From positions 107,246 to 171,245 of the forward strand of contig CACEHM010000002.1 in NCBI GenBank assembly GCA_902559355.1: a stretch of 64,000 bases of DNA, read 5' to 3'. Position numbers and translations under genes: made by a program. The stretch's first letter is position 1; each line of letters begins with the position of its first letter. Below the pieces are notes generated by a model. That model was given only the letters and a program-made list of their open reading frames with translations. It was not told the DNA's origin and ran no database searches. This document shows, one piece after another, positions 4,643-56,844 of the stretch. This DNA comes from an uncultured Gammaproteobacteria bacterium. GTDB lineage: Bacteria; Pseudomonadota; Gammaproteobacteria; GCA-002705445; GCA-002716945.

Positions 4643-6561
4643 TAAATATTGCTTTGTTACTTTTACTTACTCCACTCATAGGGACTCTAATCCTTTTGTA
4701 CTTGCAAAACTCATCAAAAAAACTAACTATTATTATTTCAAATTTATCTATATTATTTTCTTTCTTGCTTTCTGTGTACTTACTAATTCTTTATATATCA
4801 TCCAATGCTTCTACTTTATCTAAAGATGTATTAGTCTTCGCTGATGTAAAGATATATTCCTTAGCATTTGGACTTTATATTGATTCATTGTCCCTAGTAA
4901 TGTGTACTGTAGTCACCTCAGTCTCCTTTCTTGTTCACTATTATTCTATTTCTTATATGAAAGATGAAAAATCATTTAATAGATTTTTTATCTACACAAA
5001 CTTTTTTACATTCTCAATGCTTCTAATAGTTTTATCAAATAACTTTTTTCAACTATTTATAGGATGGGAGCTTGTAGGGTTATCTTCTTATCTATTAATT
5101 GGTTTTTGGACTAAGAAAGATTCAGCCATTAAAGCAAACTACAAAGCATTTCTGGTTAATAGAGTGGGTGATATAGGATTAATCCTAGGGTTATGTTTGA
5201 TATTTATTTCATATAATACAACTAACTATAATGAAGTATTTCAACTAAAAGATACTATAAATAATACAAACATAAACATTTTTGGATATACATTTAATAC
5301 TCTAAGTTTTATTTGCTTTTTGCTATTTATAGGCGCAATGGCTAAATCTGCACAAGTGCCGCTTCATTTTTGGCTTCCAGATTCTATGGAGGGCCCAACG
5401 CCAATATCTGCCCTTATTCATGCTGCTACTATGGTAACCGCAGGTATTTATATGGTCGCAAGGCTATCACCTCTTTATGTTTTAGCAGAAGATGTTTCAT
5501 TGTTTATATTGTACGTTGGTTCGATTACTGCATTTTTCCTTGGAATAGTTGCATTAGTGCAAAATGATATTAAAAGAATTATTGCATATTCAACTATCTC
5601 ACAGTTAGGCTATATGACTGCTGCACTAGGTGCATCATTATATTCATTAGCTATTTTTCATTTAATCACTCATGCTTTCTTCAAAGCACTATTATTTCTG
5701 TGCGCTGGTTCAATAATTATAAAATGTCATCATGAGCAAGATATCAGGAAAATTGGAGGTTTGAGAAGGTTTATGCCTATTACGTATATGGCATTTTTAT
5801 ATGCCTCACTATCTTTAATTGGATTTCCTCTCACATCAGGTTTTTATTCCAAAGAGACAATTATTGATGCGGTGGGATATTATGGTCACACAATTCCATA
5901 TATAATGCTTTTATTATCGATATTTACCACCACACTATATACAGCAAAAATATTCTCTAAGGTCTTTTTTGGTGAATGTACTTTACATTTAGATAATGAA
6001 TTAAAAAATAAAGAAAATGATAGTGAAATGTTAATGCCGCTTGTGGTATTAACCATACCTTCAGTATTTTTAGGTATATTTATTTATGACTCTTTAATGT
6101 TGGGGACATTATTTGGAACTTCGTTAGCAGCACAAGAACTTGTGGAATCATTCTATAATGATTATGTTATTAATTCTCTAAATTTTTTTCTACACTCTTT
6201 TTTGACTATTAATTTTTTAATATTATTATCAGCTATAATCTTCGGATATTTTTATTACTATAAAAAATCTTTTGTGATAAAGACACCTTCTTTTATCAAA
6301 AATATCTTAACAGAAGAATATGGTTTTAACATTTTTTCATCTAAATATATTCCTGAACTTCAAAACTTTATAACTAAATATTTATGGAGACGTGTTGATA
6401 TATCAGCTATTGATAATGGATTTGTTAATAATACATCATATTTGCTTAATAAAATTTCATATAAGGTTCGCAAAGTACATACAGGTTTCATATATCATTA
6501 CTCACTAACCATAATTTCTGCTTTAATATTATTACTATTAATCATTGGGTATAAGAACTAA
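4639..6561 (+). CDS. nuoL: NADH-quinone oxidoreductase subunit L
   Basis: [55 protein letters not shown] motifs. Confidence 0.97.
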
Positions 6562-8064
6562 ATGTTTGATTATCCTATTCTTAGCTTGTTAATATGGATA
6601 CCTATACTTATAGGACTATTGCTAATTTTATCAAAAAATATTAGTGACAATATATCTCAACTCATAACATTGCTAACATCGTTTTTAATACTGGTTGTTT
6701 CATTAAATTTAACTCAAGCTTATGATCATACAACAAGTCAACTTCAATTTATTGAGCGTATCGAATGGATATCTGGCCTTAATATATTTTATTATCTTGC
6801 AGTTGATGGGATATCTGTTTCACTTATATTACTAACAGCTTTTATAAACTTTTTAATTGCGATTTATGCGTCCTCAGAAAACTATGTGAAAAAGTCTTCT
6901 TTTTTAGGTTACTTTTTAATTTTAGAAGGGCTTCTAATAGGAACCTTTTCAGCATTTGATAGCATTCTTTTTTATATATTTTTTGAAAGTTTATTAATTC
7001 CATTATTTCTAATTATAGGTATATGGGGTGGAGCTAACAGAAAATATGCTACTTTGAAATTCTTTCTTTATACATTATTTGGTTCTGTTTTAATGTTAAT
7101 TTCTATAATTTATTTAGCAAAAATATCTGGATCATTTGCAATTCAGGATTTTTATTCTGTTAATCTGTCATTTCAAGAAGAGATATTGATACTCTTAGCA
7201 TTTCTAATAGGATTTGGAATTAAAATACCAATGTGGCCTGTTCATACATGGCTGCCAGATGCACATGTAGAAGCCCCAACAAGTGGATCAGTTATTTTGG
7301 CTTCAGTTCTTCTTAAAGTTGGTGGATATGGAATGATTAGATTTATGTTGCCTGTAACAACAGACGCTGGAATTTATTTAAGTGAGTATATGATTTATTT
7401 ATCTCTAATAGCTATCATCTATATTAGTTTTGTAGCTTATGCTCAAGAAGACATGAAAAAACTAATTGCATATTCTTCTGTAGCGCATATGGGTTTTGTT
7501 ACACTAGGTATCTTCCTGGTTTTTAATCTACTTGACAGTAATACATCTGCTGCAATAATTGGCCTAGAGGGTGCTATGGTTCAGATGATATCTCATGGAT
7601 TAATATCTGCGGCATTATTTTTTTGTATAGGAATAATATACAAGCATTCCAAATCGAGACTTCTTAAAGATAATTATGGCGTTTCTAAATTCATGCCAAT
7701 TTTCTCTTTTATGATGATTTTTTTTCTTATGGCAAACTCTGGCTTACCAGGGACTTCGGGTTTTGTTGGGGAATTTCTTGTAATTACTTCATCTTTAGGC
7801 TCAAGCTTTTTATTCGGTTTTCTTGCAGCGACATCACTACTTCTATCAGCATCATATTCACTTAAAATGGGTAAAACTGTTTTATTTGGAGATAACCTTA
7901 AAAACACACAAGGATATATAGAATGTAGTTTTAATGAGAAAATTGTTCTAACAATTCTAATTATATTCATTTTATATCTTGGTATTATCCCAGATTACTT
8001 ATTTAAAATTATTGACCAATCTGTTATTGGAATTATTGAGTCGTTATCAGCAGGTAAAATATAA
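6562..8064 (+). CDS. nuoM: NADH-quinone oxidoreductase subunit M
   Basis: FFESLLIPLFLIIGIWGG, PVHTWLPDAHVEAPTSGSVILASVLLKVGGYG motifs. Confidence 0.97.
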   Translation: MFDYPILSLLIWIPILIGLLLILSKNISDNISQLITLLTSFLILVVSLNLTQAYDHTTSQLQFIERIEWISGLNIFYYLAVDGISVSLILLTAFINFLIAIYASSENYVKKSSFLGYFLILEGLLIGTFSAFDSILFYIFFESLLIPLFLIIGIWGGANRKYATLKFFLYTLFGSVLMLISIIYLAKISGSFAIQDFYSVNLSFQEEILILLAFLIGFGIKIPMWPVHTWLPDAHVEAPTSGSVILASVLLKVGGYGMIRFMLPVTTDAGIYLSEYMIYLSLIAIIYISFVAYAQEDMKKLIAYSSVAHMGFVTLGIFLVFNLLDSNTSAAIIGLEGAMVQMISHGLISAALFFCIGIIYKHSKSRLLKDNYGVSKFMPIFSFMMIFFLMANSGLPGTSGFVGEFLVITSSLGSSFLFGFLAATSLLLSASYSLKMGKTVLFGDNLKNTQGYIECSFNEKIVLTILIIFILYLGIIPDYLFKIIDQSVIGIIESLSAGKI

Positions 8065-9494
8065 TGTTGAATATTTTATTCATACCCGAAATAATACTTT
8101 CAATCGGAGTGATGATAATCATTCTATTTGACTTATTTTTTCAAAAACAGAAAGGACTCTCATTCACTTTAGTACAGTTTCTATTATTAATAGCTGCCTA
8201 TTACTCTCTGGATAATAAGTTTTCACCTAGTTATAGCGCATATACACTTAATGAATTTACAAACGTTTTTAAATTCATTCTTTTAGTTGGCTCTCTTACG
8301 ATATTTCACTATACATATAAGCATCTTAAATTTCTAAAAATTCTTAAAATCGAATACTTCACGATTTCGTTACTAGGCCTTATTGGAACTATGATTATGA
8401 TTTCAGCAAATAGTTTACTAATGTTGTATCTTGGTATTGAATTATTATCACTATCTTTATACGCACTCATTGGTTTCAATAAAAAATCATCTTTATCATC
8501 TGAAGCTGCAATTAAATATTATGTTCTGGGAGCAATGTCATCCGGCATACTATTGTTTGGTATTTCATTAATTTACGGCTTCACAGGTTCTATAGTCTAT
8601 GATGATATAGCATCTCAATTGATTAGTATCGATATGAATTCAGTCGATTACATAGCTATTGTTTTTGGAATCATTTTTATAACTGCCAGCCTATGTTTTA
8701 AGTTTGGTGCAGCCCCATTTCATATGTGGGTTCCTGATATATATCAAGGTTCTTTAATAAGTACTACAATATTATTGAGCACTCTTCCAAAGATTGCAGT
8801 TTTTATTGTTTTTCTTAAATTGTATTTCATACCATTTATTCTTCTCAGAGAAGTATGGTCAGATATATTAATTTTTGTCGGAATGCTCTCTATAGTAATA
8901 GGGAGTCTGTTTGCTTTAACTCAAGAAAATATAAAAAGACTTCTAGCATATTCTGCTATATCTAATATAGGATTTATCATATTATCACTTGGCCTTATCT
9001 CGGTCGACGGCATTCATGCATCACTCTACTATACTGTGGTGTATAGTCTAACAGCACTTGCGTCATTTGGTATTATTACTCATATTACCTCCAACAGTAA
9101 CGGCATTGAAAAGATAACCGATCTAGCAGGACTATCAAAGACACATCCATACTTTGCTTTTTTAATTTTAATTACTATGCTGTCCTCAGCAGGCATTCCA
9201 CCTTTAGTTGGATTTCATGCAAAGTTAATGGTAATTAAGGCGTTAGTAAGTAGTTCATATATTATACTTTCAATCATTGTTGTCATAATGACTGTTGTAT
9301 CAGCTTATTACTATTTAAAAGTTATTAAAACGATTTATTTTGATAACAGAGAGGATTTAATCTCAACTTTCTCTAATAGTGATATAATTTTATCGATAAA
9401 CGTTTTATCACTTATAGCTTTAGGAATTTTTCCTTATCTATTATTCAATTTAACTAGTTACCTTATGAGAATATTTTCTGTAATTTCTATTTAA
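8064..9494 (+). CDS. nuoN: NADH-quinone oxidoreductase subunit N
   Basis: GIELLSLSLYALIGF, FGAAPFHMWVPDIYQGS motifs; end of nuo operon. Confidence 0.96.
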   Translation: MLNILFIPEIILSIGVMIIILFDLFFQKQKGLSFTLVQFLLLIAAYYSLDNKFSPSYSAYTLNEFTNVFKFILLVGSLTIFHYTYKHLKFLKILKIEYFTISLLGLIGTMIMISANSLLMLYLGIELLSLSLYALIGFNKKSSLSSEAAIKYYVLGAMSSGILLFGISLIYGFTGSIVYDDIASQLISIDMNSVDYIAIVFGIIFITASLCFKFGAAPFHMWVPDIYQGSLISTTILLSTLPKIAVFIVFLKLYFIPFILLREVWSDILIFVGMLSIVIGSLFALTQENIKRLLAYSAISNIGFIILSLGLISVDGIHASLYYTVVYSLTALASFGIITHITSNSNGIEKITDLAGLSKTHPYFAFLILITMLSSAGIPPLVGFHAKLMVIKALVSSSYIILSIIVVIMTVVSAYYYLKVIKTIYFDNREDLISTFSNSDIILSINVLSLIALGIFPYLLFNLTSYLMRIFSVISI

Positions 9495-49745: not shown

Positions 49746-49817
49746 GTATATAATTATATAGAATCATACTATTCAACTAATATTATAACTCTCTCGTTGG
49801 GTATATATTTCATAGTA

Positions 49818-50666
49818 TTATTTTAACCTATTACCAAGTATTAACAGTTCTTTTATTTTTTTTCTTTTTGATGCTACTGAGTTTATGTTTCTACTAGCAT
49901 CGATACGGATTATTTTGAAACCTCTATAAAGATCTTTAACTATTTTCGTATTACTGTTGGACGCTATGACATAGGCTCCTTTTGAATCAGCTAATTTGAA
50001 ATGATCTGCCAGGTTTTTTTGTTGTTCTAGACCAAACTTTACAGAGTAATCTGTAAAATATGATGTTTCATTTAGAGGAACATATGGCGGGTCAAAATAT
50101 ACTAAATCATTTCTCTTAATTATGACTTCCTTATAATCTTTTGATGTAATATTTCTGTTTGGCGGCAATACTTTAGACAGTTGTAATATTTGCTCTGGTT
50201 TTATAAATGAAGCATTGGCATACCGACCTACAGGTACATTAAATTCACCTTTACTATTTACTCTGTAAAGTCCATTGAAACAAGTTTTATTCAACAGCAT
50301 CAGTAAGGAGCTTCTCGTTAGTGAAGAAATATTTTTATCTCTAGAATTATATAAATCTCTCATCCTATAGTAATCTTTTTCACCTTTATAATTTCGCAAT
50401 AATATTTCATATTCTTTTATTAAAGAACTACTTTTACTTTTGATATGTTTATATAGCTGTATAAGATCTTTATTAGCGTCATTGATATATAAATCTCTTT
50501 TTTCAATATTAAATTTATTTATAATGTTAAAAAATACTGCTCCTCCGCCAAAAAAAGGTTCAATATATCTATCGAATTTTAAGTTGATGTAATATTTTTC
50601 AATTATTTTGTTAAGTGAATATTTTCCACCAGCCCATTTAAGCAACGGTTTATTCTTAATAATCAT
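49818..50666 (-). CDS. Dam-family (D12 class) DNA adenine methyltransferase
   Basis: PLLKWAGGKYSL, YIEPFFGGGAVFF, DLVYFDPPYVPL (DPPY) motifs. Confidence 0.92.
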   Translation of the reverse strand: MIIKNKPLLKWAGGKYSLNKIIEKYYINLKFDRYIEPFFGGGAVFFNIINKFNIEKRDLYINDANKDLIQLYKHIKSKSSSLIKEYEILLRNYKGEKDYYRMRDLYNSRDKNISSLTRSSLLMLLNKTCFNGLYRVNSKGEFNVPVGRYANASFIKPEQILQLSKVLPPNRNITSKDYKEVIIKRNDLVYFDPPYVPLNETSYFTDYSVKFGLEQQKNLADHFKLADSKGAYVIASNSNTKIVKDLYRGFKIIRIDASRNINSVASKRKKIKELLILGNRLK

Positions 50667-50671
50667 TTGAT

Positions 50672-51496
50672 TTAAAATTTATGCTCTCTTCTGTGCCAAC
50701 CAAGATATTTAGCATGATGCTCTTGAAATTTAATTCGTTGCTTTTCATTAATACCTAATTTATTTAATAAAACTTTATCTATCTCATTAGATAAAAGTAC
50801 CTTACCATCGTCTGTAAAGGATACATATCCAAGCTCAAAAACTAAATCAATATTTGGGGACAATAGGATTCCATTAAATTCGTCAAATGCTTCAGAAGGA
50901 TTACATTTTGCGAATGGTTTTATATGTGCCCCAATCAAGAGCTTGATATCACTGATTTGTGTTATTGGACACTCATTATTCCAAATAATTTTAAGTTTTT
51001 CTTTAAAATACTTTTGATATTTAGAATTTCTTACGTTATGTTCTTGACGAACCCTGAGCTGATCTTCAAATTTTTTATTATCACCATAGACTTCTTTTTT
51101 CAATTCCCCATATGATCCTTTAGATATAGATAGCTCATAAAATTTGTTCCTTTTTTTATTGAACCATATTTTATAATTCAGGTCTCTGATTTCAGATTTA
51201 TCAACTATTTCACATTCTGGATAGTCTTTCTTAATCTGTTCATGTAGATCATCAGTAAACCTAATTCTGTATAAAGGGGTTTTTCTTGTACCATCATCAT
51301 TTTCTTTTTTAAATGTATTTGCTTTATAAATCTCTCCTGAATAATAAATATCTAGATCAACTGGAATCTCTGGCTTGCAAGGAAAAAACCCTTCTTCCAT
51401 TGAAGGATAAGGTGCTACAGTGGTGCGATCAACAAAGAAGCTTTTATCTAGGTCTTTAGTCCAATAATTTTCTATTCTTTTCCAGGAACTCGCCAT
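50672..51496 (-). CDS. HNH endonuclease, probable restriction partner
   Basis: NECPITQISDIKLLIGAHIKPFAKCNPSEAFDEFNGILLSPNIDLVFELG resembles HNH_2-type domains; adjacent to the methylase. Confidence 0.8.
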   Translation of the reverse strand: MASSWKRIENYWTKDLDKSFFVDRTTVAPYPSMEEGFFPCKPEIPVDLDIYYSGEIYKANTFKKENDDGTRKTPLYRIRFTDDLHEQIKKDYPECEIVDKSEIRDLNYKIWFNKKRNKFYELSISKGSYGELKKEVYGDNKKFEDQLRVRQEHNVRNSKYQKYFKEKLKIIWNNECPITQISDIKLLIGAHIKPFAKCNPSEAFDEFNGILLSPNIDLVFELGYVSFTDDGKVLLSNEIDKVLLNKLGINEKQRIKFQEHHAKYLGWHRREHKF

Positions 51497-51500
51497 GATA

Positions 51501-51526
51501 GTTATGTAAATATAACATTATATGTT
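51501..51526. promoter_or_regulatory. Overlapping palindromes in the divergent promoter region
   Basis: GTTAT-GTAAAT-ATAAC (51501-51516) and AACAT-TAT-ATGTT (51514-51526). Confidence 0.4.
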
Positions 51527-51629
51527 CACTAGAGTAACTTTAATATATATGGTGGCGATATCTATCTAATATTACATAAGGATAATACTTCTCCTTGTAG
51601 GATAGTTTAAAATAGTTAAAATAAAGATT

Positions 51630-53861
51630 ATGTCTCTAAGAAATCTTGTAAGCCTAGGTAAGTTTGAAGATAGATATAATGTTGATTCAGGTGAGGAAGT
51701 TAAAAAAGTACTAGATAACTTTTTTATTCCTGCGTTAAGTAATTCTCATACATATGATCGTCAGGCTGGCTATTTCAGCTCCGCTATATTTTCTATTACA
51801 TATCAAGCGTTGCCTAAATTTATAAAAAATGGCGGCAAAATGCGCATAATATGCAATGAATTTCTCACCAAAGAGGATATCGCTGCAGGTAAAGATATTT
51901 CGAGTCAGGAACAATTTAATGAAGAACTTCATTATCTGTTAGAAAATTTTCAACACCATAAGAGAACACAACTCCTTTGTTCCCTCATAAAGCAGGGTGT
52001 ATTGGAAATGAAAATTTGCTGGAAACATCAACCCGGATTATTTCATGAAAAAACAGGAATATTTCGTGATAATGAGGGCACTACCGTAACCTTCAATGGC
52101 GGAGTGAATGAATCTTTGGGTGGATGGCTCAGTAATTATGACTCAATGACGCTAGAACAATCTGGCGGAACAGGAAGAAAAAATGTTATTGAAGATCAAA
52201 TCAGAGATTTCGATAATTTATGGAAAAATTCACATGATGTGTGGCAGTGTGTCTCTTTGGATAAAGCGATAAAGAATAATATTATAAAAAATGCATTTGA
52301 TGCTAAAGATTTTGATAGAGAATTGGATGAAATCATTCGTATAGAGGACTCTCTCAAAGATATCTTAGCTAAAAATAACACATTAACTTTTGAAGACATT
52401 AAATCAATTCATAGATCAAGCAAAGATGCATCACCACTCGACGGAGTTACACTAATGGATCATCAAAAACTAGCTATCAATTCTTGGAGAGCTAATGATA
52501 ATAAGGCAATTCTTAAATACTGTACTGGAGCTGGAAAAACAATGATTGCAATGTTTGCAATACGTGAGATGTTAGCGAAAAATAAAAAACCATTAATAAT
52601 TCTTGATGGTCTTACTCTTAGAAAACAATGGGAAATAGAAATTAGAAAGTTTGTGACAAATAATGTATTTATTGCCCAAGGGAAAAATATTACAGAACAG
52701 TTGTCGGCTGTATCAAAAGATGATGGAAAAGATATAGTCATTCTAGTATGTGAACAGTCTGCAAAAACGCAAAACTTTCTCAATAATTTTACAATCGGCG
52801 AACATATATTTTTAGTGGCTGATGAATGTCATTGTTTATGGGCTGACGGTGCTAATAGAATCATTCAACAAAGTTGGAACAACTGTCCACGCTTAGGATT
52901 AAGCGCTACTCCTGAGAATACCTCATTTGAACAGCTCGATAGAAAACAACCAAGTAAGATTGATGTCGTTGAATTTTTTGGCGGTAAGAAAATGCCTGAT
53001 AATACTTACAAATTTACTGAAGTATTTACGATTAGGCAAGCCATTGCTGCCAAGCCTCCCGTCCTTACAAAATATTTCTATTATCCCATATCTGTGAATT
53101 TGACAGATACTGAAATGAGAGAGTATATGTCATTAACAAAAAAATATCACAACTTCCTTCATCAGCATGATGAGAATAATAAAGAAGATTTAGAAAGACT
53201 TAAACGTTATTTGATAGCAAGAGCACGAATTATTAAAAATGCCGAAAATAAACAATATAAATGTAAAGAAATTATAACTAGTAAAGCTTATAAAACACAT
53301 ATTATTAACCCAGAACGACAATCATGGTTAATTTATGTGGGTGCTGGCCAAGGTATTGACAAAGACGATGATAGAAGACAGATAGAGACTTATAGGGAAC
53401 TTATAAATCAGTCTATGCCAGGTGTGAATGTAATTGCGTATTTCAGTGATAAAGTAAAAAGTAAAGATAGGAAGAAAACCTTAGATGATTTTAAAAATAC
53501 GCAAGGCATTTTAATAGGCTGTCAAATGTTAGATCAAGGAATAGATATACCTCAACTATCTATGGGAATTATTCTAGCATCTTCTAAAAATGAAAGGACA
53601 TTTATTCAACGTAGAGGTAGACTTCTTCGCATAGATAGAAGTAACAGGTTGCATAAAAAAAAACATGCTGTAATTTTTGATATAATCGTTGTGCCTAATT
53701 TCAAATCATATAATGATGATTCAGAAGAACAAGATTTTCTTAAAATGGTTGAGGGAGAATGTCACCGAGCAATGCAATTTGCAGCAGATGCTGAAAACGA
53801 TGTTGAAAGTTTAAATGAATTAGACATAATAAGAAATAAACTTAGGGCTAGAGTCTCATAA
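51630..53861 (+). CDS. PLD-like nuclease domain fused to SF2 (DEAD/DEAH-like) helicase
   Basis: PLD-like FHEKTGIFRD...TFNGGVNES; Walker A YCTGAGKTMIA; VADECHCL; LGLSATPE; QMLDQGIDIPQLSMGIILASSKNERTFIQRRGRLLR. Confidence 0.88.
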   Translation: MSLRNLVSLGKFEDRYNVDSGEEVKKVLDNFFIPALSNSHTYDRQAGYFSSAIFSITYQALPKFIKNGGKMRIICNEFLTKEDIAAGKDISSQEQFNEELHYLLENFQHHKRTQLLCSLIKQGVLEMKICWKHQPGLFHEKTGIFRDNEGTTVTFNGGVNESLGGWLSNYDSMTLEQSGGTGRKNVIEDQIRDFDNLWKNSHDVWQCVSLDKAIKNNIIKNAFDAKDFDRELDEIIRIEDSLKDILAKNNTLTFEDIKSIHRSSKDASPLDGVTLMDHQKLAINSWRANDNKAILKYCTGAGKTMIAMFAIREMLAKNKKPLIILDGLTLRKQWEIEIRKFVTNNVFIAQGKNITEQLSAVSKDDGKDIVILVCEQSAKTQNFLNNFTIGEHIFLVADECHCLWADGANRIIQQSWNNCPRLGLSATPENTSFEQLDRKQPSKIDVVEFFGGKKMPDNTYKFTEVFTIRQAIAAKPPVLTKYFYYPISVNLTDTEMREYMSLTKKYHNFLHQHDENNKEDLERLKRYLIARARIIKNAENKQYKCKEIITSKAYKTHIINPERQSWLIYVGAGQGIDKDDDRRQIETYRELINQSMPGVNVIAYFSDKVKSKDRKKTLDDFKNTQGILIGCQMLDQGIDIPQLSMGIILASSKNERTFIQRRGRLLRIDRSNRLHKKKHAVIFDIIVVPNFKSYNDDSEEQDFLKMVEGECHRAMQFAADAENDVESLNELDIIRNKLRARVS

Positions 53862-53877
53862 TGGATCGTCAAAGAAA

Positions 53878-54129
53878 ATGAAAACTACAGATTCTATTAA
53901 TAGAGAAAAACTTGATGCAATGATGAGGGAAGAGCTGACTCATTATTTTAGCGAGGAGCAAGCTAATACTGATGATCCTGTGGTTTCCATTGATATACTA
54001 ATGTCTATATGGGATTTAGTAATAGAATACGAAGCTAAAAACTCTCAAGTATCTGATAAGAAAGCGGATAATTATAAAAACTTAGTTCACAAGATAAAAT
54101 TATTAATAAATAAACAACAAAATGATTAA
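53878..54129 (+). CDS. Hypothetical 83-aa protein in defense-like operon
   Basis: 16-nt gap from the helicase, overlaps the next gene by 8 nt. Confidence 0.65.
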   Translation: MKTTDSINREKLDAMMREELTHYFSEEQANTDDPVVSIDILMSIWDLVIEYEAKNSQVSDKKADNYKNLVHKIKLLINKQQND

Positions 54130-56161
54130 GCTTGATAAACTCATTTTAAACAATGTGGGTCCATACAGATACATAGAAAACTCTAATAGAGATATTGAGA
54201 TTTCTGATAATTGTAACTCAGACTATATTTTTATTCATGGTAGTCCTACGCACGGAAAAACAACTTTTAGAAATGCTCTCTCATGGCTGTTGTGTAATAA
54301 GTTCTCCGATGATTCAGCTGTTGGTAAATATTCGGATAATCATACGGTGTCAGATTTTATTAATCAAAATTGTGTTCAGTTTCCTGATCATCATTTTTTT
54401 GTCAAAGGTGAACTAGTAGATGATGTAAAAAATAAAAGATATGTAATAACAAAAACAATTAATTTAAAAGAAAAGGGAATAAAAAATATTGAGGACTTAA
54501 AAAATAATCCACCCGATGTTAATACAAATATAAAGGTCATAGATTTAGATACACAAGAAAACTATCATCCTCAAAATCCATTAAAGTTTTTAGATAATTT
54601 ATTTCCAAGCAGATTACTGGATTATTTTTTTGTTTCAGGGAATGATGTAAAAGCAAGGCTCAAAAAAAAGGATCTAGCTGCTGATTTTGAAACTATTCTT
54701 GGATTAGGCGCTTTCAATACTCTCAAAAGTGTATTGCAAGATATTAAAGAGGATTTAGCAAGTAAAAATGCAAGAGATGAGAAAGCAGATAAGGAGAGCA
54801 AGGCATTAAATAATGCTAAAGAAACGTATAAATTAGAACTTAACGGCAATGATAATGGAGCAGAAGGAAAAATTACTGAACTGGAAAATGTCACAAGAGA
54901 AATTACAAATACAGAAAATAAAAGAGACAATGCTATTTCTGAGTTATCTAAGTATGATGAATGTAGTAAGCTAGCAAGTGAACGAGATAACATAAAAGCT
55001 AAAATTGAGCTTAAGATTGAAAGCATGAGAGACGATGCAGAATGGTTACGAGCTCGAAGCTCAGAGCTCTGGGCTATTCATGCATACAATCATGTCATTG
55101 TACCAATGCAAGATGCCCCTCAGATTTATAACTCAGCAGATAGAACTCTTATTGATATAATTGATAGTATTACGTCGCATGAAGCGCCTTCACATATATT
55201 TCAAAATCTTAGTGATAATGATAAAGCAGTACTTGAAGAAATTGTCAATTTACACAAAGAAAAATTAGATGTAGATACTAGTGATATTTCAAGTTTTGAC
55301 AAATATAAAGGGGCGGATAAAGAAATCCTAAAAAAAACTAGAAACTTAGCTCAAAATAAAAATAAATTGCAAGAACTACAAATAGATTTAAGTGTTAAGA
55401 CTGCTGAGATTGCAAATACACCATTTCAAAATGAAACAGAAGAAAAAAAAGTTAAACAAGCTAAGATTCAATTAAATGGCATAGAAGATTTAATCGAATC
55501 ATACAGACACAAAGAACAAAAACTCAAAGCTGAAATTCAGGTTACACAAGCTAATCTCAAAGAGATTGAAGAAAAATTATCAAAGAACATCGAACATCTA
55601 ACAGCTGAAGAAAAGAAACAATTCGATGTTGCAAGTGTACTTATCCCAGTTGTTGAAAAATCATCAGATGCTTGTAAAAAAGCATACAGAAAAACATTTG
55701 AGACAAAAGCAAATGAAATATTCGAAGTAGTTAAAAATCCAAAAAACCCTAATGATTCATTAAAAATTGATGAAAAATACAATCTAACTATCACTAGACC
55801 TGGGCTTAGAGACAGCGAGGATCAAAAAACCAGAGAGCTTGAAAGAAAAAGGGAGTCAGGCTCAGAGGGCTTTATTGCAGCAACTGCTGTTACACTAGCG
55901 TTATCACAACTTGCTGTAAAACATTTCCCTGTTGTTCTTGATACGCCATTTGAACAAGGTGATTATCAAGATGACCTAAGGTTAATTGATGGTTGGAAAG
56001 AAATAAAGCAGCAAGCTATTATCTCATTTCAGAAACCTAAGGATGGTACAGATTCGCCTCTCTCATATCATAATCTTAAAGATAAATTTCCGATGTCAAA
56101 ACATTACCGTCTACACAAAGATGAAACCAAAGAGATGAGTTGGTTCGAGGAGATTAAGTAA
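54122..56161 (+). CDS. SMC/Rad50/DndD-like ATPase
   Basis: Walker A FIHGSPTHGKTTFRNALSWLL; long coiled-coil; C-terminal SGSEGFIAATAVTLALSQL and Walker B FPVVLDTPFEQGD. Confidence 0.82.
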   Translation: MIKLDKLILNNVGPYRYIENSNRDIEISDNCNSDYIFIHGSPTHGKTTFRNALSWLLCNKFSDDSAVGKYSDNHTVSDFINQNCVQFPDHHFFVKGELVDDVKNKRYVITKTINLKEKGIKNIEDLKNNPPDVNTNIKVIDLDTQENYHPQNPLKFLDNLFPSRLLDYFFVSGNDVKARLKKKDLAADFETILGLGAFNTLKSVLQDIKEDLASKNARDEKADKESKALNNAKETYKLELNGNDNGAEGKITELENVTREITNTENKRDNAISELSKYDECSKLASERDNIKAKIELKIESMRDDAEWLRARSSELWAIHAYNHVIVPMQDAPQIYNSADRTLIDIIDSITSHEAPSHIFQNLSDNDKAVLEEIVNLHKEKLDVDTSDISSFDKYKGADKEILKKTRNLAQNKNKLQELQIDLSVKTAEIANTPFQNETEEKKVKQAKIQLNGIEDLIESYRHKEQKLKAEIQVTQANLKEIEEKLSKNIEHLTAEEKKQFDVASVLIPVVEKSSDACKKAYRKTFETKANEIFEVVKNPKNPNDSLKIDEKYNLTITRPGLRDSEDQKTRELERKRESGSEGFIAATAVTLALSQLAVKHFPVVLDTPFEQGDYQDDLRLIDGWKEIKQQAIISFQKPKDGTDSPLSYHNLKDKFPMSKHYRLHKDETKEMSWFEEIK

Positions 56162-56667
56162 TGAATGATACGAATCATACATATTCAGCTTCGGATCAAG
56201 AGTGGCTTCAAAAAGGAGCTAGTGATGTGAGTCTGAGTGAGAAAAATATTGAATGGGTAGACAAGTTGTTCAAATCTACAGATAACCCTTATAAATTTAT
56301 TGATAGTAAAGAGGATTTTTATTTAGTAGGTTTCGTCGTTGCTTTAGCGCACGATAAGAAGCCAGAATTCTGGAAAGGACGCAAGGGCAAAGATAGGTTT
56401 ATTTCTAAAATCGTCAGAGGTTGGGATGCAGGAAGAGGCGATCAAGCAAGAACACTTCTGCGAAAAGTATTTGGGACAAAGATATTAGAAAATGGAATGA
56501 ATCCTGATATCGGTGCTAATAAATGTATATCCTCGCTTGTAGATCAAGGCCTAACTATCATTCATGAGAAGCATCTTATGGATGCGGGTGATACTACAAT
56601 GACATATACATGGTTTGGAATATCTATGCTACTTGCTGCACCAAAGTTGTGGGGGAAAACAATATAA
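56161..56667 (+). CDS. Hypothetical 168-aa protein, last gene of defense-like operon
   Basis: Start overlaps the ATPase stop (TAATG); no recognised domain. Confidence 0.65.
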   Translation: MNDTNHTYSASDQEWLQKGASDVSLSEKNIEWVDKLFKSTDNPYKFIDSKEDFYLVGFVVALAHDKKPEFWKGRKGKDRFISKIVRGWDAGRGDQARTLLRKVFGTKILENGMNPDIGANKCISSLVDQGLTIIHEKHLMDAGDTTMTYTWFGISMLLAAPKLWGKTI

Positions 56668-56737
56668 ATAATCTTTTGGAGCAGATTTATTTTATCAACT
56701 TACATGATGAAAGCAATAATCTAAAATTTATTATTAT

Positions 56738-56810
56738 CCTCCCCGCCCGGACTCGAACCAGGAACTAAACCTTAGGAGGGTCCTGTTATATCCTGTTTAA
56801 CTACGGGGAG
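56738..56810 (-). tRNA. tRNA-Arg (CCU)
   Basis: Reverse strand: acceptor CTCCCCG/CGGGGAG, anticodon loop CTCCTAA (CCT), T-arm GGTTCGAGTCC; no encoded CCA. Confidence 0.93.
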
Positions 56811-56844
56811 ATATTTTTGTATATTCTATAGTATAGTATGCAAT

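Follow-up and report, generated by a model that had tools for sequence, protein, structure and literature searches.

The PbeABCD system that has been studied is DndCDEA-PbeABCD of H. jeotgali A29 (Xiong et al. 2019, PMC6459918), where PbeABCD together with phosphorothioation (PT) was shown in 2019 to block virus replication, giving about 10^4-fold protection with PT at G-PS-ATC. PbeABCD halts virus replication without detectable cleavage (PMC6459918); the HKD domain has been argued to imply cleavage (PMC10853773, 2024). Solitary copies account for 320 of the 553 published pbeAC and have been suggested to be inactive (PMC6459918). Solitary PbeABCD copies near methyltransferases (MTases) were already noted in 2019 and 2024 (PMC6459918, PMC10853773), and the question whether solitary modules are defunct or now rely on methylation in place of PT was posed in 2019 (PMC6459918). 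In the CxC ABC-ATPase/DndE-anchored systems (Rakesh, Aravind and Krishnan 2024, PMC10853773) linked methylases are an alternative to PT, the named types being cytosine-5 and circularly permuted cytosine-N4. The same work gives DndE as a double ribbon-helix-helix (RHH) protein, PbeD as the DndE cognate and PbeB as rapidly evolving (PMC10853773).

The locus described here lies in a 64,000-nucleotide stretch of DNA (the window), and its four-gene operon is a complete but divergent PbeABCD (CxC-ATPase/DndE-cognate) defence module. It resembles the module of H. jeotgali A29 in gene order and approximate protein sizes (B, 66 aa there and 83 aa here; D, 152 aa there and 168 aa here), but dndCDEA is absent from its neighbourhood, DndC was not found in the assembly, its ATPase (gene 3) is hookless and a Dam-HNH gene pair adjoins it. 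With the CxC systems (PMC10853773) it shares the ATPase-DndE pair, the HKD-SF2 protein and a small protein; it differs from them in having no CxC hook and in its methylase, which is of the Dam adenine-N6 type. Overall, the locus is a divergent, hookless, non-PT PbeABCD, probably partnered by methylation. It makes a compact case for testing: the genome is small, the module is intact, its PbeA is of methylase-linked ancestry, and the one candidate methylase lies within the same insert at a distance of 133 bp.

Four genes in the order of PbeABCD

All four genes lie on the forward strand: gene 1 (51630–53861, 743 aa), gene 2 (53878–54129, 83 aa), gene 3 (54122–56161, 679 aa) and gene 4 (56161–56667, 168 aa). 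A 16-nt gap separates genes 1 and 2, genes 2 and 3 overlap by 8 nt and genes 3 and 4 by 1 nt; these ORF coordinates agree with the layout read in the initial annotation. An HKD-SF2 PbeA, the A-B-C-D order, a DndD-like coiled-coil ATPase and a DndE cognate are all found here. Gene 1 and the architecture tie the operon strongly to the family; genes 3 and 4 are well assigned, and gene 2 is placed by its position.

That annotation had proposed a defence-type module built on an HKD-helicase and a DndD-clade ATPase, which PADLOC, profile matches and gene order bear out, and had thought the system possibly undescribed. The latter is ruled out, as PADLOC matched genes 1 and 3 to its PbeA and PbeC models and the gene order is that of the published PbeABCD (PMC6459918, PMC10853773). 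A canonical Dnd system was rejected as well, since no DndC was found in the window's own assembly (1.04 Mb, 93% complete); the lack of a DndC-like gene, first remarked on at the locus, thus holds for that assembly too and the module is not linked to PT. Association with PT (DndCDEA) is absent at the window and is not a requirement of the family. Because so many published pbeAC are solitary, the absence of DndCDEA lowers only the PT-based claim.

Dozens of unrelated genomes have the same A-B-C-D order, which puts the four-gene arrangement far beyond chance. The order is annotated in haloarchaea (Halorubrum, Halobaculum), Ruegeria, Lactiplantibacillus, Sphingomonadaceae and others. Among 75 loci with a full-length ATPase, which were found via PbeA, 62 have an ORF in the D position after the ATPase and 63 have one in the B position before it. 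Homologs elsewhere do carry the four genes together, as their treatment as one system had presupposed. At two loci (L006, 10110–16353; L014, 1–5908) the PbeABCD genes adjoin Ssp-like sets (PAPS reductase-type, DUF4007, ATPase and cysteine desulfurase) and not DndBCDE.

Gene 1 is PbeA, with an HKD (PLD-like) nuclease domain and an SF2 helicase. It matches five PADLOC PbeA models (best PDLC02707, 1.4e-151) and Pfam ResIII and Helicase_C; the Dnd-restriction helicase domain TIGR04095 is matched below its cut-off. Every motif noted at the outset was located in the sequence: the PLD-like HEKTGIFRD occupies residues 139–147 and the SF2 motifs are TGAGKT (299), DECH (398), SATP (425), DQGID (635) and QRRGR (660). 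In an alignment with nine plasmid-borne PbeAs, to which gene 1 is 22–29% identical, H139, K141, D147 and N160 are conserved among the homologs. An alignment of the N-terminal PLD region by itself proved too divergent as a genome-scan query.

The 83-aa and 168-aa proteins are not new in kind and occupy the PbeB and PbeD positions. Gene 2 encodes a small acidic protein whose size and place, between PbeA and PbeC, fit PbeB. A profile of 67 PbeB-position ORFs scores it at 3.6 bits, within noise, and PADLOC gives a weak BrxA match (0.0017).

Gene 4 had no match in PADLOC, Pfam and other profile searches, a PDB sequence search with it returned noise, and hhalign directly against four canonical DndEs found no match. 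A profile made without the window from D-position ORFs of other genomes ranks gene 4 best of all window ORFs (18.7 bits, the next reaching 3.1), with an alignment colinear over most of its length; hhalign to the profile on its own gives P 4.3e-05. Since gene 4 was missing from the best hhalign rows in a control run, its independent support comes from hmmsearch and the fold. The AlphaFold (AF2) model (pLDDT 74.5, from a 49-sequence alignment) contains two strand-helix-helix units, and its eight best PDB matches in Foldseek are all DndE (first probability 0.93; E-values not below 0.1). A weak sequence signal and a concordant predicted fold make a good case for gene 4 as the PbeD/DndE cognate, a predicted DNA-binding protein with two RHH units.

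An ATPase without a zinc hook

Gene 3 is a PbeC-like coiled-coil ABC ATPase with Walker A GSPTHGKT (40), signature SGSEG (579) and Walker B VVLDTPF (about 606), and its AF2 model is Rad50/SMC-like. The C-x(1-2)-C zinc hook is absent from it; the protein has just five cysteines, none of them at the coiled-coil apex. This is new here: of the 75 full-length PbeC relatives surveyed, 74 have a C-x(1-2)-C motif about midway along their length. The hookless ATPases of the survey are that of the window and that of a SAR86 cluster MAG (L078, 9312–14106), which groups with the MTase-linked clade and whose PbeA, as assembled, is split across several reading frames. The hook is likewise missing from canonical DndDs of the surveyed loci. 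Its absence here bears on the question of whether ATPases of this clade need to dimerise at the apex.

When genome and viral collections were scanned directly by DNA pattern, gene 3 found no relative, and relatives were therefore gathered through PbeA alignments. A PDB sequence search with gene 3 gave only noise. Gene 3 was not found in 368 other genomes of the class and matched only two plasmid records (~22% identity), a DndD and a PbeC. With the window left out of its construction, a PbeC profile finds gene 3 with 135 bits (2.6e-41). In PADLOC the PbeC model (1.8e-19, 67.8 bits) and the DndD model (4e-19, 67.1 bits) nearly tie, and against the curated DndD cut-off gene 3 falls below (60.7 vs 245.85 bits).

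The trees allow two placements of this sequence: gene 3 may belong with PbeC, having lost the hook, or may lie on the DndD side. The second placement would make the locus a hybrid, with a true hookless ATPase of the DndD clade inside a PbeA operon, and would be compatible with either of the modes of action considered below. The PADLOC near tie is in keeping with this, the full tree sets gene 3 beside DndD rows (SH-aLRT 93, at an unresolved fork), and constraining gene 3 to the DndD side is not rejected (p-AU 0.81). However, gene 3 is the longest branch in the tree (2.5–3.0), and once the other long rows are removed it no longer groups with the DndD clade, whose support without gene 3 is then 100. 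Canonical DndD is likewise hookless, but here the assembly has no DndC and partners A and D are Pbe-type. We regard a hybrid of this sort as rather unlikely.

The tRNA-Arg island and its Dam-HNH pair

Homology to a close relative (psd protein 97% identical) ends at 49761 and resumes at 56737 (blastn), which delimits an acquired island of six genes (49762–56736). Its right edge is a tRNA-Arg (CCT) gene on the reverse strand (56737–56811, ARAGORN). In the close relative the island slot holds 2.1 kb of unrelated content, a photolyase cassette. Across the genus the slot is variable, containing the photolyase cassette, a tyrosine-integrase element (L121, relative G752, 4863–8565) or the defence island. 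No att repeats were found at the tRNA edge in the window, and PbeA was not found in 24 other genomes of the family, many of them incomplete. Dam, HNH and the four pbe genes sit in one insert of ~7 kb at a tRNA-Arg integration hotspot, and the six genes likely arrived in one event.

The HNH endonuclease gene (50672–51496, 274 aa) is the first of a pair on the reverse strand, followed after 5 nt by a Dam/DpnII-type DNA adenine N6 methyltransferase gene (49818–50666, 282 aa). The pair forms an operon of its own, divergent from PbeA across the 133 bp, and may be a type II restriction-modification (R-M) system. The HNH protein matches Pfam HNH_2 (7.8e-08) and PADLOC REase_II (5.1e-14), and its C-terminal half matches the HNH nuclease structure 6YEX (3.9e-15); the first ~150 residues have no Pfam match and might sense DNA sites or modifications. 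The Dam gene matches TIGR00571 dam (7e-73) and MethyltransfD12 (2.1e-52). Among solved structures it is closest to the DpnII methylase M.DpnIIA (2DPM, 7.5e-52), so GATC is its likely site, judged from sequence. GATC occurs 148 times in window positions 1–64000 against 253 expected (ratio 0.58), with most other palindromes tested near 1. We rejected this scarcity as a trace of GATC restriction, because it is common to the relatives' fetched stretches without the island (0.59–0.83).

The initial annotation had offered a modification-independent or a methylation-coupled role; PbeA phylogeny and the neighbouring Dam gene favour the latter. The PbeA tree puts the window's protein in a clade of 11 (SH-aLRT 98), of which ten members, the window included, are MTase-linked and none is PT-linked. 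The other members mostly have an upstream N6_N4-type methylase (N6_N4_Mtase, confirmed by Pfam). At the window there is no operonic methylase and Dam is the sole candidate, a combination of MTase-linked, non-PT PbeA ancestry with a Dam/DpnII-type enzyme that is new here. MTases lie near 16 of 49 non-PT loci and none of 40 PT loci (Fisher p 3e-5), a contrast that may be overstated since the MTase queries were taken partly from the same loci; counting by motif alone gives 6/49 and 0/40 (p 0.03), with related loci non-independent. The absence of MTases near PT loci is what would be expected if one mark replaces the other. Four other loci have a Dam-family gene near PbeABCD, and at one of these it belongs to a DpnII-Dam pair that diverges directly from the module; the Dam-like ORF that lies upstream of PbeA in L104 had no Pfam match and was left out of the count.

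Three loci invite direct comparison. Aurantiacibacter atlanticus (L007) and Devosia equisanguinis (L027) belong to the same PbeA clade (98) and have no PT genes in the fetched stretch; both have an N6_N4 methyltransferase directly upstream in the same direction and CPTC hooks, whereas the window has neither. Like the window, a Candidatus Saccharibacteria MAG (L057, 233–6948) has a complete PbeABCD with a divergent Dam-family R-M pair beside it, at a gap of 111 bp. It differs in that its nuclease is DpnII (PF04556) and not HNH, its PbeA falls in another clade and its ATPase has a CACC hook.

Proposed methylation-guided defence and its alternatives

We propose, as the reading with somewhat better than even chances, methylation-guided PbeABCD defence by a module acquired within the 7-kb cassette at the tRNA-Arg hotspot, with Dam supplying the self-mark. 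The putative DndE-like protein with two RHH units (gene 4) and the coiled-coil ABC ATPase (gene 3) would form a DNA-scanning core. On meeting cognate sites that lack the host mark, the core would sense the missing methylation and then recruit PbeA or license it to act; with its SF2 motor and HKD domain PbeA would stall or cut the foreign DNA, so that replication stops. Gene 2 may act as a regulator of the complex. The self-mark would be adenine methylation, probably at GATC, made by the adjacent Dam/DpnII-type methylase in place of PT. Since the partner of the studied PbeABCD puts PT at G-PS-ATC, one mark could conceivably have been exchanged for the other at the same site. More tentatively, and with odds clearly against it, the hookless PbeABCD may itself read the GATC adenine methylation made by the Dam of the neighbouring R-M pair in place of PT, which would mean that the two marks are interchangeable at one site and that the ATPase can work hook-free.

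Several points weigh against methylation-guided defence. The published Pbe module needed PT, and inactive solitary copies are possible (PMC6459918); gene 3 lacks the hook that defines the CxC systems and sits on a long branch, and gene 2 has no sequence match. Dam and HNH may also simply be an adjacent type II R-M system complete in itself. Two independent systems would then share the island, an ordinary HNH-Dam R-M and a PbeABCD without modification partner that is triggered by phage DNA structures or proteins and would act through suicide or the sensing of DNA structure, modes suggested for systems under PbeB regulation. The separate, opposite-strand HNH-Dam operon and the changing content of the tRNA-Arg slot fit this arrangement; 33 of the 49 non-PT PbeA loci have no MTase by the queries used, and a suicide/PbeB-release model has been proposed (PMC10853773). 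Yet the window's PbeA clade is consistently MTase-linked, Dam is the only MTase candidate at hand and PT-linked loci have no MTases nearby, and we give two independent systems about one chance in four. It is improbable that the operon is a degenerate solitary PbeABCD without function, carried along by hitchhiking since it lost its modification partner and ATPase hook: solitary pbeAC have been suggested to be inactive (PMC6459918), gene 3 has diverged rapidly and the other hookless locus has a broken PbeA frame, but here the four ORFs are intact, the HKD, helicase and ABC motifs are conserved and translational coupling is kept in a genome of only about 1 Mb.

Within the MTase-linked clade, the PbeC proteins (L007, L026, L027, L028, L031, L105, L107) mostly carry C-x2-C hooks (CPTC, CHLC, CPVC, CIWC, CECC, CSYC) and not the CxC for which the wider clade is named. 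PbeA operons are also present on phage records and viral contigs (L016, L017, L104–L109), and the PbeABCD module may travel with viruses or prophages.
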